64,000 nucleotides of DNA from a virus: positions 1 to 64,000 of the IMG/VR virus record IMGVR_UViG_3300021180_000005; one strand, written 5' to 3'. The position numbers and the translations under genes were made by a program. The notes beneath the pieces were generated by a model, which made no database searches, was not told the origin of the DNA, and saw only the letters and a program-made list of their open reading frames with translations. Positions 17,916-64,000 of the stretch are shown here, in pieces. Numbering within the stretch: the first letter of the stretch is position 1; every line of letters begins with the position of its first letter.

Positions 17916-17991
17916 TGGTAGGGCGACTCGGACTCGAACCGAGGTTGCAGCGTTTTGGAGACGCGCCGATTGGCCGCTATCTTATCCCCCT
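17916..17991 (-). tRNA. tRNA-Trp (CCA)
   Basis: A 76-base cloverleaf on the - strand. Acceptor AGGGGGA pairs with TCGCCCT except for one G-G mismatch; D loop with GG; anticodon loop CTCCAAA giving anticodon CCA; T arm CTCGG-TTCGAGT-CCGAG; 3' CCA is encoded. Trp is rare in bacterial genomes but enriched in several virion proteins here. Confidence 0.88.
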
Positions 17992-17998
17992 GAAAGTC

Positions 17999-18072
17999 TG
18001 GAGGGTCCGCGTGAGATCGAATCACTTTCCCCAGAGTCACAGTCTGGAGCCGACACCAGTCGGTACGGACCC
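17999..18072 (-). tRNA. tRNA-His (GTG)
   Basis: A 74-base cloverleaf, seven bases upstream of tRNA-Trp in transcription order. Acceptor GGGTCCG pairs perfectly with CGGACCC; anticodon stem CCAGA/TCTGG with loop CTGTGAC giving GTG; T loop TTCGATC; encoded CCA. The base before the acceptor is A and the discriminator is T, so the usual G-1:C73 identity pair of bacterial tRNA-His is not encoded. Confidence 0.82.
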
Positions 18073-57641: not shown

Positions 57642-58226
57642 TTAATGACGAGCAGCAATCTCTTTGCAAAGTGCTATGAATTCATCATGTGACAAACTTT
57701 GTTTTGCAAGGTTTGCATCCTTACAACATGGTACGCAGTTCTTTAGCGTATAACCTATAGCTGAGTCTAAACGGTCAATTCCGTTATATGTGTAGGTATC
57801 ATTACCTACCAAAGATAAACCACGTTTGGTTCTATTTCGTGAACTTACAGATGTGTATATGTTTGATGGTTCTCTACCTGTGTAATAGCAGGGAGATTCC
57901 GTAAGTTTTCTAAACTGTTCCTGAGTCAGTTCCCACATAATGCCACGGCTTTTAGCTTGACCTTTGTAATTTCCAAATAGTCCACTAAACTCTGGATTGC
58001 TCACTGTACGAAGACAACCACAGCTGCCTACACGGTTAGACCTTAGCTCATTAGTAGGGACATTTTTAGTATTACCACAGTCACAAAAGCATTGCCACGC
58101 TGTGATTCCATTTTCACTGATGCGTTTTTGCACCACTAAGCGCCTAAAGCGCTGTCCTTCTAAGTCTAAGTGCGCTTTTATTTTTCTAGGTGCTAAATCT
58201 TTACTTCCTTTTGGTCTTCCTAACAT
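57642..58226 (-). CDS. HNH-related homing endonuclease
   Basis: A 194-residue protein: an N-terminal GRPKGSKDLAPRKIKAHLDL and GQRFRRLVVQKRIS module, CFCDCGN and CGCL zinc pairs, then CYYTGREPS, YNGIDRLDSAIGYTLKNCVP and CCKDANLAKQSLSHDEFIAL, an IDRxDxxxGY-type nuclease core. Preceded by a two-hairpin leader and AAGGAGG. Located upstream of the noncoding RNA region at 57.5 kb. Confidence 0.82.
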   Translation of the reverse strand: MLGRPKGSKDLAPRKIKAHLDLEGQRFRRLVVQKRISENGITAWQCFCDCGNTKNVPTNELRSNRVGSCGCLRTVSNPEFSGLFGNYKGQAKSRGIMWELTQEQFRKLTESPCYYTGREPSNIYTSVSSRNRTKRGLSLVGNDTYTYNGIDRLDSAIGYTLKNCVPCCKDANLAKQSLSHDEFIALCKEIAARH

Positions 58227-58240
58227 GATACCTCCTTCAA

Positions 58241-58302
58241 AGGTCGAGAAGGGAGCAGTTGAAGGCTGCTCCCAACTCTGACTCAGGATTATAAGCCCTG
58301 AG
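58241..58302 (-). ncRNA. two-hairpin leader RNA, copy B
   Basis: On the - strand: hairpin I CTCAGG/CCTGAG with loop GCTTATAAT, linker TCAGAG, hairpin II GGGAGCAG/CTGCTCCC framed by GAG/CTC, then GACCTTT and AAGGAGG before the nuclease ATG at 58226. Stem sequences differ from the other copies but pairing is preserved. Confidence 0.7.
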
Positions 58303-58313
58303 GTATTAAAAAT

Positions 58314-59929: not shown

Positions 59930-60194
59930 TATTCATTGCCTCTCGCTGTGCTTGTACTTGCGCTTTTTTCACTTCTACATACACGTCAATTTCCTGACGA
60001 TCTGTAATTCCTAGTTTCTTTTCTAGGATGAAGTTAAGCAGTAACGCTGCAGTGTCTGCCATGCCCATAAGCTCATTGTCATTAGAAGCTAGCTTCATAA
60101 ACAACGTGTGTGCCTCACGTCTGGACATAGGAGCATCCCAGTACTTATCGTAAGGTTGTTGAATCGGTGAATCTGAACTTATGATCTGAGTCAT
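59910..60194 (-). CDS. small helical protein
   Basis: Ninety-four residues: PMSRREAHTLFMKLASNDNE, a helical ALLLNFILEKKLGITDRQEI and a C-terminal VEVKKAQVQAQREAMNNAQS. Its start codon lies within ATGACTCAGA, so the GACTCAG motif overlaps the start. Function unknown. Confidence 0.55.
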   Translation of the reverse strand: MTQIISSDSPIQQPYDKYWDAPMSRREAHTLFMKLASNDNELMGMADTAALLLNFILEKKLGITDRQEIDVYVEVKKAQVQAQREAMNNAQSNS

Positions 60195-60598
60195 TTGTTC
60201 CTTTCAATATAATCAGCTACTTTTCTCATCCTATCAGGATTGTCATTGAACAAGCCCATACCTCTGTTGCATTTAGTATGTACTATACCTCTTATTTTAC
60301 CTGTCAAGTGGTCATGGTCTACTGGAGGGAATCTATCGCCGTTTTCTTTCTCAGGTAGAGGTTCTTCGCAGGCTGCGCATAACCCTTTCTGCTCTTTCCA
60401 TCTTTGTGCATATTGCTCTGGTGTTAATCCAAAGCTACTTTTTAATGAGCTTTTTCTATGGGATTCTATGGTTTTTTCTGGATTTCTATTTCGCCATTCC
60501 TTAGTATGTGTGTTCTTGCACTCTAAGCAAACTAATCTCCCACCCTGTTGCACCTTAACATGACCCTGTGGACATGTAGATGTACTTGGCCTACCCAT
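60191..60598 (-). CDS. endonuclease VII-like homing endonuclease
   Basis: A 135-residue protein: an N-terminal zinc knuckle (CPQGHVKVQQGGRLVCLEC), FGLTPEQYAQRWKEQKGLCA with CAAC, PPVDHDHLTGKIRGIVHTKC with the DHDH catalytic motif and NRGMGLFNDNPDRM. Standard T4 gp49-type homing nuclease. Overlaps both neighbours by 4-8 bases. Confidence 0.88.
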   Translation of the reverse strand: MGRPSTSTCPQGHVKVQQGGRLVCLECKNTHTKEWRNRNPEKTIESHRKSSLKSSFGLTPEQYAQRWKEQKGLCAACEEPLPEKENGDRFPPVDHDHLTGKIRGIVHTKCNRGMGLFNDNPDRMRKVADYIERNK

Positions 60599-61637: not shown

Positions 61638-62150
61638 TTACTGAGTACTGTTGTGTTTCTGAGTCCAAAATCTAAGGTATTGCATTGCCCGGTCAAGCCA
61701 TGTACCGGGGATGGGTGTGAAATCTCCCTGAGCTAGTAGTATTTCTAAATTACCCAGCTTATGGTTGCACTCCCAACACAATAATCCACGAAGGCATTTT
61801 CCACATGACACTTTTCTATCACAACATGAATGTTCGTGGTCAATGTGCAATCTTACGTGAAAACCTGTACCCTCAGTTGCTGGGCACAATGCACAGTGTC
61901 CTTCTTGCAACTTTAACTTATCTTCGTAGTAATTTTTAGGAGCATGGTGCTTTCTGGCATTGCCATACTTTTTATAAAGAGACTTATCGCGCTCTTTTGC
62001 TCCTTCTCTGCACACCTTACAGCCTTTGTTAAATCTTGAATCCTCTTCAAATGTTTTGTGGAACCCACACCACTTCAGACCTTTATCTTTTGCTTCTCTG
62101 TACGCCTCTGTAGTGATGCCATATTTATATAGTCGTGCTTGTCTTCTCAT
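61638..62150 (-). CDS. endonuclease VII-like homing endonuclease
   Basis: A 170-residue protein: basic start (RRQARLYKYGITTEAYREAK), CKVC zinc pair, CALCPATEGTGFHVRLHIDH then EHSCCDRK (catalytic HIDHEH), CGKCLRGLLCWECNHKLGNL. Recombination endonuclease VII fold. It has a promoter at 62240 and a two-hairpin leader directly upstream. Confidence 0.9.
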   Translation of the reverse strand: MRRQARLYKYGITTEAYREAKDKGLKWCGFHKTFEEDSRFNKGCKVCREGAKERDKSLYKKYGNARKHHAPKNYYEDKLKLQEGHCALCPATEGTGFHVRLHIDHEHSCCDRKVSCGKCLRGLLCWECNHKLGNLEILLAQGDFTPIPGTWLDRAMQYLRFWTQKHNSTQ

Positions 62151-62326: not shown

Positions 62327-63253
62327 TTAGATCGTGGGAACAGCAGCGTTCTGTACATAAAGTCCAGCACGAGGGGCGCTATTTGCTAAGTTGAAGCACG
62401 TATTATAGGCAAACATATGGCTGGTCAAATACGTTCCGTTCGTGGTACCCACGTCAGGTACGGGTGCAACCACATTGCCGCCGCCGAAGTCATAAAGCTC
62501 CAGAGGAGAAAGCTCGCCAATGTACCAATTCTCCATGATTAGGAGGTCCATACGCGATGCAGTTGCTGTGGCAGACTTGTGGTACTTACGTCCACCGAAC
62601 GTGTCCGAGAAATAACGCTTGGACATGTCCAGAGTCTTCTCGCCCTTAACTTCCTGAGCGTTTACGATCTGAACGTTGTACATCAAGTTACTCTGTGCAA
62701 ATGCCTGCTCAAGAGGACCATACCAAATGCCGCTCTTTAGCGACTCTGCATCTGGACCGAGTGCTCGTGTCAACAGTACTTCTGCACGTTGCGCGATTCC
62801 GGGGGTAATTGCTGCGCCGTTCAGGTTAATGGTTGGCGTGCTAAGACGACCGGGGTACGCGTTGCGGTTCAGCCCACCGATGGTTCCAGTGTTGCTGTTA
62901 ACATCCCAAGCCTTAATACCTAGGATGGAGTTTCCGCTGCCGTACGATGCACCAGCTACGACGATGTAATCGGTAACAACTACGTCAGAAGGTAGAACGG
63001 TGCTGAAATATAGAGTGTTGCTAGGGCCATCAGAGTAGCTGATAGTTGCCTGTGTAACACCACCAGTACGTTGGACTCCACCTGTGCTGTAGAACTTTAC
63101 GACCTGTTGATCGGTAAAGGCTACTGCAACGTTGATACCAGCAATGCTAGCAGTCTGGGAAGCGGGTGATCCGCCGCTCAGTACAATGGTAGCTGTTGCA
63201 GGAATCTGGTCGATCATCAAATATGTTGCGCCGTTTCGTTTGTATAAACGGCT
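62327..63253 (-). CDS. major capsid protein, exon 2
   Basis: Reads on from exon 1 after intron removal: SRLYKRNGATYLMIDQIPAT and onward. Alpha/beta body with KAWDVNSNTGTIGGLNRNAY, a long helix (AEVLLTRALGPDAESLKSGI) and YVQNAAVPTI end, consistent with an HK97-type major capsid protein of environmental podoviruses. The TTG-initiated ORF start (63220) is an artefact of the intron. A 6-bp hairpin overlaps the stop codon. Confidence 0.78.
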   Translation of the reverse strand, partial: SRLYKRNGATYLMIDQIPATATIVLSGGSPASQTASIAGINVAVAFTDQQVVKFYSTGGVQRTGGVTQATISYSDGPSNTLYFSTVLPSDVVVTDYIVVAGASYGSGNSILGIKAWDVNSNTGTIGGLNRNAYPGRLSTPTINLNGAAITPGIAQRAEVLLTRALGPDAESLKSGIWYGPLEQAFAQSNLMYNVQIVNAQEVKGEKTLDMSKRYFSDTFGGRKYHKSATATASRMDLLIMENWYIGELSPLELYDFGGGNVVAPVPDVGTTNGTYLTSHMFAYNTCFNLANSAPRAGLYVQNAAVPTI

Positions 63254-63910
63254 CTCGTAATTACTTACGAGTTCAGACTATATCATACCTTTACGGTTCA
63301 ACTGTACAAGTTGATCTCTTAGTTCTTGTCTCTTTTGGTGAGCCTCAATGTATATAGGACTGTCTGTAGTCAGCTTCAATCCCTGCTGACATCCATTTCT
63401 TCCTTCGTATACCCGCTCAAACTCTAAACCAATAAGAGCCTGCCGCTTCTTTATCACTAGATAAGGAAGCATTGTTTCAAGAACTGCTATTCGATTGTTC
63501 TTACCTTTAGGCATCCATGCGTATTGTGTTTTGCAGTTGTTCTTGTTTTTAGAGCAACTAACAGAGTACATACCACCAAAATTACTAATCAACCACTGCA
63601 TCAACTCTAGGTTGGTGTTTGCTATCTTCACGTTCATCTGGAAGATGGTTGTGTTGTTTTTGTTGTGGCTAGTACTGATACAAACGGTGCCTTCACCATC
63701 GAACAGCCCAGCCAGATACGACCAGTGCGTTTCATTTGAGTTTTTCATAAAAGTTGTAGTGCTTCGGTCTCACTTGAGACCTACTCCCTTGCGGGATAGT
63801 CGTTACACCTTCCTCAGTTCCGAGGAGCGGCTCGGTATTGTCTGATATACGATTCTATTATATCAGGTTTCCACCGAATTCTCTACATTTTACACGGGCA
63901 GATTTTGTTT
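63254..63910 (-). ncRNA. group I intron in the major capsid gene
   Basis: P1 forms between exon end CACGGGT and internal guide GCCCGTG with a G-U pair at the splice site (63911/63910). P7 strands GACTATC (63801-63795) and GATATAGTC (63284-63276) are conserved group I elements, with GGTGTAAC and AAGACC-like context. A 7-bp hairpin CTCGTAA/TTACGAG closes the 3' end at G63254. Splicing joins GGT to AGC in frame. A LAGLIDADG nuclease gene lies within. Confidence 0.85.
63278..63748 (-). CDS. intron-encoded LAGLIDADG homing endonuclease
   Basis: A 156-residue single-motif enzyme (acts as a dimer): SYLAGLFDGEGTVCISTSHN near residue 11 with the catalytic Asp/Gly/Glu, then FQMNVKIANTNLELMQWLIS and ALIGLEFERVYEGRN. 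Its stop TAG is part of the P7 element GATATAGTC, so ORF and ribozyme are interlocked. Would cleave intronless capsid genes to spread the intron. Confidence 0.9.
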   Translation of the reverse strand: MKNSNETHWSYLAGLFDGEGTVCISTSHNKNNTTIFQMNVKIANTNLELMQWLISNFGGMYSVSCSKNKNNCKTQYAWMPKGKNNRIAVLETMLPYLVIKKRQALIGLEFERVYEGRNGCQQGLKLTTDSPIYIEAHQKRQELRDQLVQLNRKGMI

Positions 63911-64000
63911 ACCCGTGCCATCACTGTTGATCAAACCTTCGATACCCTGCATTGCTGCATCCAAAGAGTTCTTCATTTCCTGTGCTTTGACAGCGAAGAG
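63911..64000 (-). CDS. major capsid protein, exon 1 (partial)
   Basis: The 30 codons visible at the window edge: LFAVKAQEMKNSLDAAMQGI then EGLINSDGTG, a helical N-terminal region typical of capsid proteins. The gene continues beyond base 64000. The last codon GGT forms the P1 U at the 5' splice site. Confidence 0.75.

Follow-up and report, generated by a model that had tools for sequence, protein, structure and literature searches.

What interrupts the gene at the right-hand edge of the window (the whole 64,000-nucleotide stretch analysed here), and where does the interruption end? The gene is encoded on the minus strand, its first exon extends past the window edge and the rest is found on contig G000, a virus record of 103,649 bases. 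The first-pass annotation had proposed that the major capsid protein (MCP) gene is split by a group I intron interlocked with a LAGLIDADG gene. We consider it very probable that the presumed MCP gene of this uncultured phage of about 100 kb contains an IA-like group I self-splicing intron, which in turn carries a LAGLIDADG endonuclease gene; splicing and homing we infer from comparative sequence evidence. The proposed intron and its interlocked gene are upheld by covariation, by a covariance model built from introns at other sites, by a LAGLIDADG family match and by homologues that run uninterrupted across the join.

Exon 1 begins at an ATG at 64354, on the same contig and outside the window. 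It comprises 444 nt encoding 148 amino acids and ends GAT GGC ACG GGT with last base 63911, as had been read from the sequence (...NSDGTG at CACGGGT); the part within the window (63911 to 64000) aligns with intronless relatives. The intron, with its 3′ end corrected as described below, occupies 63910 to 63218 (693 nt). Exon 2 (63217 to 62327) starts ATG ATC GAC (MIDQ) and encodes 296 amino acids plus a stop codon.

Upstream in transcription lie, in order, the large terminase (PHROG 2, 4e-15), an 863-aa ORF, an endonuclease gene and a 500-aa ORF, followed by the split gene. The 863-aa and 500-aa ORFs gave no family match, and their portal and scaffold labels were assigned by size and place only. 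NCBIfam NF033394 (capsid_maj_Podo) matched residues 55 to 269 of an intronless homologue of the split gene with E=5.3e-5 and 22.6 bits, below its cut-off of 80. Pfam and PHROG searches of the capsid candidate, a comparison of its profile with the PDB and a tblastn search of the MCP against INPHARED phages returned no match. AlphaFold2 run on nine intronless capsid homologues yielded a pLDDT of 28; because this model was unusable and was not taken as evidence, the identity of the gene is not proven. The major capsid protein is nevertheless the best reading and a likely one, given the gene order and the NCBIfam match. The earlier assignment is therefore kept as likely, with a family match below cut-off and no structural support.

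The ribozyme was examined with covariance models. RF00028, whose gathering score of 50 is a score threshold and not a structural defining feature of group I introns, matched the intron at 20.9 bits (E=0.0093) in a 1.1-kb piece. No match reached the gathering score in the window, and a scan of the whole window at E≤0.5 did not recover the intron. The search named as a check by the first-pass annotation thus finds a match, but one so far below the gathering score that Rfam alone would not settle group I identity. Related ORF-less introns of the same type score 57.8 to 86 bits with RF00028, and we attribute the shortfall of the window intron to the 470-nt ORF in P8. A covariance model made from eleven introns, all from other sites of relatives' genes (R3), matched the window intron at 100.7 bits (E=3e-27), the sole match in the window, L002 and L003.

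Covariation was assessed by aligning the core and 3′ domain of 13 introns of this type, five sharing the window's insertion site and eight from elsewhere in the gene. Across 46 core pairs, standard pairs filled 98.5% of 594 pair cells, and 27 of the 46 pairs had changed on both sides. Double changes numbered 135 against 40 expected. The covariation score was 0.636, compared with 0.214 in shuffles (none of 500 reached 0.636) and at most 0.155 in slid controls. The conserved core (P3, P4, P6, P7 and P8) with its P3-P7 pseudoknot is present, and P3, P4, P6 and P7 are paired in all 13 introns.

The individual helices could be placed as follows. P1 is formed between exon CACGGGT (63917-63911) and the internal guide sequence GCCCGTG (63899-63893), giving CACGGGU/GCCCGUG with a U.G pair at the 5′ splice site, as first noted. 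The P3 5′ strand TGTAG (63887-63883) pairs with CTACA (63759-63755). P4 (63878-63873 with 63836-63831) encloses P5 (63866-63860 with 63848-63842) within 63831-63878; P3 and P4 both show compensatory changes. P6 (63830-63829 with 63809-63808) and P6a, at 63808-63830, were placed from the alignment of the 13 introns. The two P7 strands that had been reported are located at 63801-63797 (GACTA) and 63280-63276 (TAGTC) and are invariant. Between P7 and P3, at 63766-63796, lie two covarying helices, P7.1 (TCCC/GGGA) and P7.2 (GGTCTC/GAGACC). P7.1 and P7.2 mark subgroup IA, and we describe the intron as IA-like. The terminal hairpin of the earlier reading is P9 (CTCGTAA/TTACGAG, 63271-63254), which is paired in 13 of 13 introns with compensatory changes. 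Base 63218, a G, is the predicted omega-G and final intron base, as placed by intronless relatives and spliced alignment. Since the spliced aligner rewards a U before the intron, a G at its end and, in the final run, the P7 motif, these features are not counted as independent evidence. In L032, a C to T change in the exon is matched by a G to A change in the guide, and this co-variation of P1 supports a functional intron.

The 3′ boundary differs from that first proposed. The intron had been ended at G63254 on the argument that a single 3′ G allows the exons to be joined in frame; joins at 63254, 63218, 63215 and other positions all stay open, so the uniqueness argument fails, yet the split of the gene by an intron stands. 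Use of G63254 as the splice site would give a capsid protein with 12 extra residues, SRLYKRNGATYL, encoded by the 36 nt that follow. This G lies directly after P9, is in frame and is the endpoint of the RF00028 match, and the 36 nt are open in frame in the window, L038 and L040. However, RF00028 matches also end 36 to 51 nt early in relatives (L020, L049), and the 12 residues are missing from all ten intronless relatives, which read INADGTGMIDQ or INADGSGMIDQ. Moreover, the stretch taken as exon forms P9.1 (GCCGTTT/AAACGGC, 63252-63230), a 7-bp hairpin found at the equivalent place in 13 of 13 introns, with six of its seven pairs changed on both sides. Flanking exons in relatives, including those at other sites, place this hairpin inside the intron. 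The conservation of P9.1 and the absence of the 12 residues from intronless relatives together lead us to define the intron as 63910-63218 and to regard splicing at G63254 as very improbable. With the intron running 36 nt further, through P9.1 to G63218, the predicted join is INSDGTG|MIDQ, the predicted spliced RNA junction is ...GGCACGGGT/ATGATCGAC, and the joined protein has 444 aa, one more than that of intronless L004 (443 aa). The corrected 3′ end is an example of a ribozyme hairpin misread as protein.

Alleles with and without the intron were compared across the corrected join. Six intronless relatives (L004 to L007, L013 and L039; about 86-94% identical) are continuous across the junction, as are four more distant ones (L029, L031, L033 and L058; about 57% identical); all read INADGTG|MIDQ or INADGSG|MIDQ. 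Intronless homologues therefore align with the joined protein across the join, an outcome on which the first-pass annotation had staked its reading. An intron at the same site in L032 has an RNA core 99% identical to that of the window, although in the 150 nt of exon 1 preceding it only 119 positions are identical. Near-identical RNA despite a diverged exon, together with the occurrence of intron-plus and intron-minus alleles, suggests recent transfer of the intron.

The P8 loop contains the gene (63748-63278) for a LAGLIDADG homing endonuclease of 156 aa with a single motif. PF00961 (LAGLIDADG_1) matched it at 29.9 bits against a cut-off of 23.1 (E 1.1e-6), and phrog_5046 at 3.7e-29 over 150 of its 156 aa. 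The ORF starts at the P8 5′ strand and ends with a TAG whose three bases open the P7 3′ strand; gene and ribozyme thus interlock, and the earlier observation of a nuclease stop codon inside P7 is confirmed. Comparison with the same-site homologues of L038, L040 and L046 gave dN of 0.10-0.13 and dS of 1.3-1.7 (dN/dS about 0.1), a sign of strong purifying selection that supports function. In L032, the endonuclease is 38% identical to that of the window while the RNA core is 99% identical, so the endonuclease of an otherwise identical intron appears either to have been exchanged or to have diverged far faster than the RNA.

Other introns of the gene carry different arrangements. In L027, L030, L034, L040 and further introns at sites 100/1 and 120/2, LAGLIDADG ORFs start upstream of P7 and their C-terminal codons cross both P7 strands (for example ...VETTRETP...DDIVRTA); this overlap goes further than that of the window intron. 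By eye, endonuclease VII/HNH-like ORFs replace LAGLIDADG in the L042 intron at 417/1 and the L046 intron at 377/0, within ribozymes of the same two families as described below.

Taken as a mobile intron, the element would act as follows. The transcribed RNA would fold from P1 to P9.1, exogenous guanosine would cut after CACGGGU, and the second step would take place at G63218, joining 63911 to 63217, releasing 693 nt and restoring the 444-aa presumed capsid protein. The endonuclease would be translated from within the intron and would cut intronless capsid alleles at the site, whereupon repair would copy the intron in. The intron could splice poorly or need a protein. It might instead be a dead relic whose ribozyme no longer splices, with the capsid gene non-functional or an alternative copy. 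Some relatives do have stops or relic-like pieces in the capsid gene, among them a 41-nt remnant in L040. We judge this very unlikely for the window phage, in which every core helix is intact, the exons are open and conserved, the endonuclease is under selection and the split gene has a single match in the 103.6-kb record. That the capsid gene has been cut in two by a free-standing endonuclease gene, each half being translated separately, is barely credible: free-standing endonuclease VII-like genes adjoin many genes of this phage, but here a covarying group I core flanks the ORF on both sides, P1 is formed with the exon and the reading frame is restored exactly.

The window intron has many counterparts in the same gene. 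An IMG/VR search with the protein returned 56 loci, among which the same phage is in some cases assembled more than once. With intronless L004 as the query, spliced alignment identified 73 distinct introns in the MCP gene of these loci, 55 of which have a covariance-model match. The covariance-supported introns fall at 23 nominal sites, or about 22 if 32/2 and 33/2 are the same; calls at 15/1, 19/2, 21/0 and 349/1 had no core support and were left out of this count. A predicted P1 of at least five pairs is found in 62 of the 73 introns, compared with 17% of mismatched exon-intron pairs. Two ribozyme families are represented. The window intron belongs to type A (model R1); type B is compact, at about 200 nt, and is mostly missed by RF00028. 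The helices of type B covary in 28 introns, with 95.5% of cells paired and 0 of 500 shuffles reaching the observed level. At two positions, 100/1 and 377/0, some phages have a type A intron and others a type B intron.

Some genes hold four to six introns: L040 has them at 6/0, 15/0, 100/1, 120/2, 147/0 and 421/2, L038 has five and L049 four. Micro-exons result, one of 15 nt in L018 (6772-6786), which restores GLYVQNAAV, and one of 23 nt in L028, between 414 and 421. Near-identical introns occupy neighbouring sites, at 414 and 421 in L028 (88%) and at 414 in L011 and 417 in L012 (91%). A 41-nt out-of-frame insert is seen between capsid codons 15 and 16 in L040 (1228-1268; also in L041 and L056). 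It resembles an internally deleted type B intron of which P1 and the P3 5′ strand remain.

In 17 longer records, which are related and partly redundant, RF00028 (not trained on these introns) placed 14 of about 20 matches in the MCP gene, about 1.7% of the DNA; the remaining matches lie by a terminase and a tail-like gene. Further type A introns (L111 to L115) were seen early in a gene for a large tail-like protein (LPEGASPR) and beside the large terminase of one record. The window phage has one such intron in 103.6 kb.

The same 103.6-kb genome also contains seven or more endonuclease VII-type genes as well as an HNH gene (window 60191-60598, 61638-62150 and 57642-58226; contig 66349-66801, 75310-75726, 77949-78299, 84689-84913 and 6931-7242), several of them interspersed with structural genes to either side of the capsid gene. 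Genes for tRNA-Trp, tRNA-His and tRNA-Phe lie at window 17916-18072 and 58226-58309, and the tRNA-Phe gene abuts an HNH-type endonuclease gene.

Introns in capsid genes had been called uncommon, yet they are less rare than this implied, given that the gene is a hotspot in this clade and that cases have been published. The introns of Twort ribonucleotide reductase and T4 td, nrdB and nrdD (cited in PMC3984707 and PMC3706429) are, as here, phage group IA-like, some with endonuclease ORFs in ribozyme loops. The host genes of the Twort and T4 introns are nucleotide-metabolism genes, and the endonuclease families of those introns differ from that of the window. Closer in host gene is mycobacteriophage LittleE (Cluster J), with a group I-type intron in the MCP gene, a LAGLIDADG-like ORF, and splicing established by RT-PCR and N-terminal sequencing; unlike the window phage, LittleE is an unrelated phage with one 819-nt intron, its ORF on the opposite strand and the intron class left open (PMC3706429). 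A capsid-gene intron of lactococcal Tuc2009 is cited in the same paper. The MCP gene of a crAss-like Zeta phage lies in five fragments, so that there, as here, an MCP gene of uncultured phages holds several group I introns; however, that phage belongs to another order and has four intervening segments in one gene (PMC7886860), compared with about 22 sites in one MCP family and up to 5-6 introns per gene here. Gut Jug phages also have many group I introns (18.5 per genome), of about 206 nt, in core genes and with metatranscriptome-supported splicing; their genomes are 360-402 kb and the introns are described in terL, nrdD and polymerase genes (PMC12363816), whereas here most detected introns are in one gene. 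A study of psbA introns in freshwater cyanophages (PMC8557907) contains no capsid intron. Thus, capsid-gene introns were known before, and the density and number of sites in this one capsid gene exceed the published cases that we found in a partial coverage of the literature.

As an apparently mobile group I intron in a presumed phage capsid gene, the window intron is clean and complete. Our judgement is evenly balanced on whether the clade's capsid gene, with two ribozyme families, about 22 sites, five to six introns in some genes and exons of 15-23 nt, is a sink for introns in the manner of fungal mitochondrial cox1. On this reading, the near-identical introns at neighbouring sites would show that introns reach new sites through reverse splicing or recombination besides single-allele homing, and endonucleases would be swapped between near-identical ribozymes. 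Ordinary gene calling will miss or truncate the capsid genes of such phages. The finding raises the question of how a protein required in hundreds of copies is made via several splicing events with micro-exons. With about 22 invaded positions, one structural gene supplies intron-minus, ORF-less and ORF-bearing alleles as a natural series for tracing how introns are gained and lost, exchange endonucleases and reach new sites.
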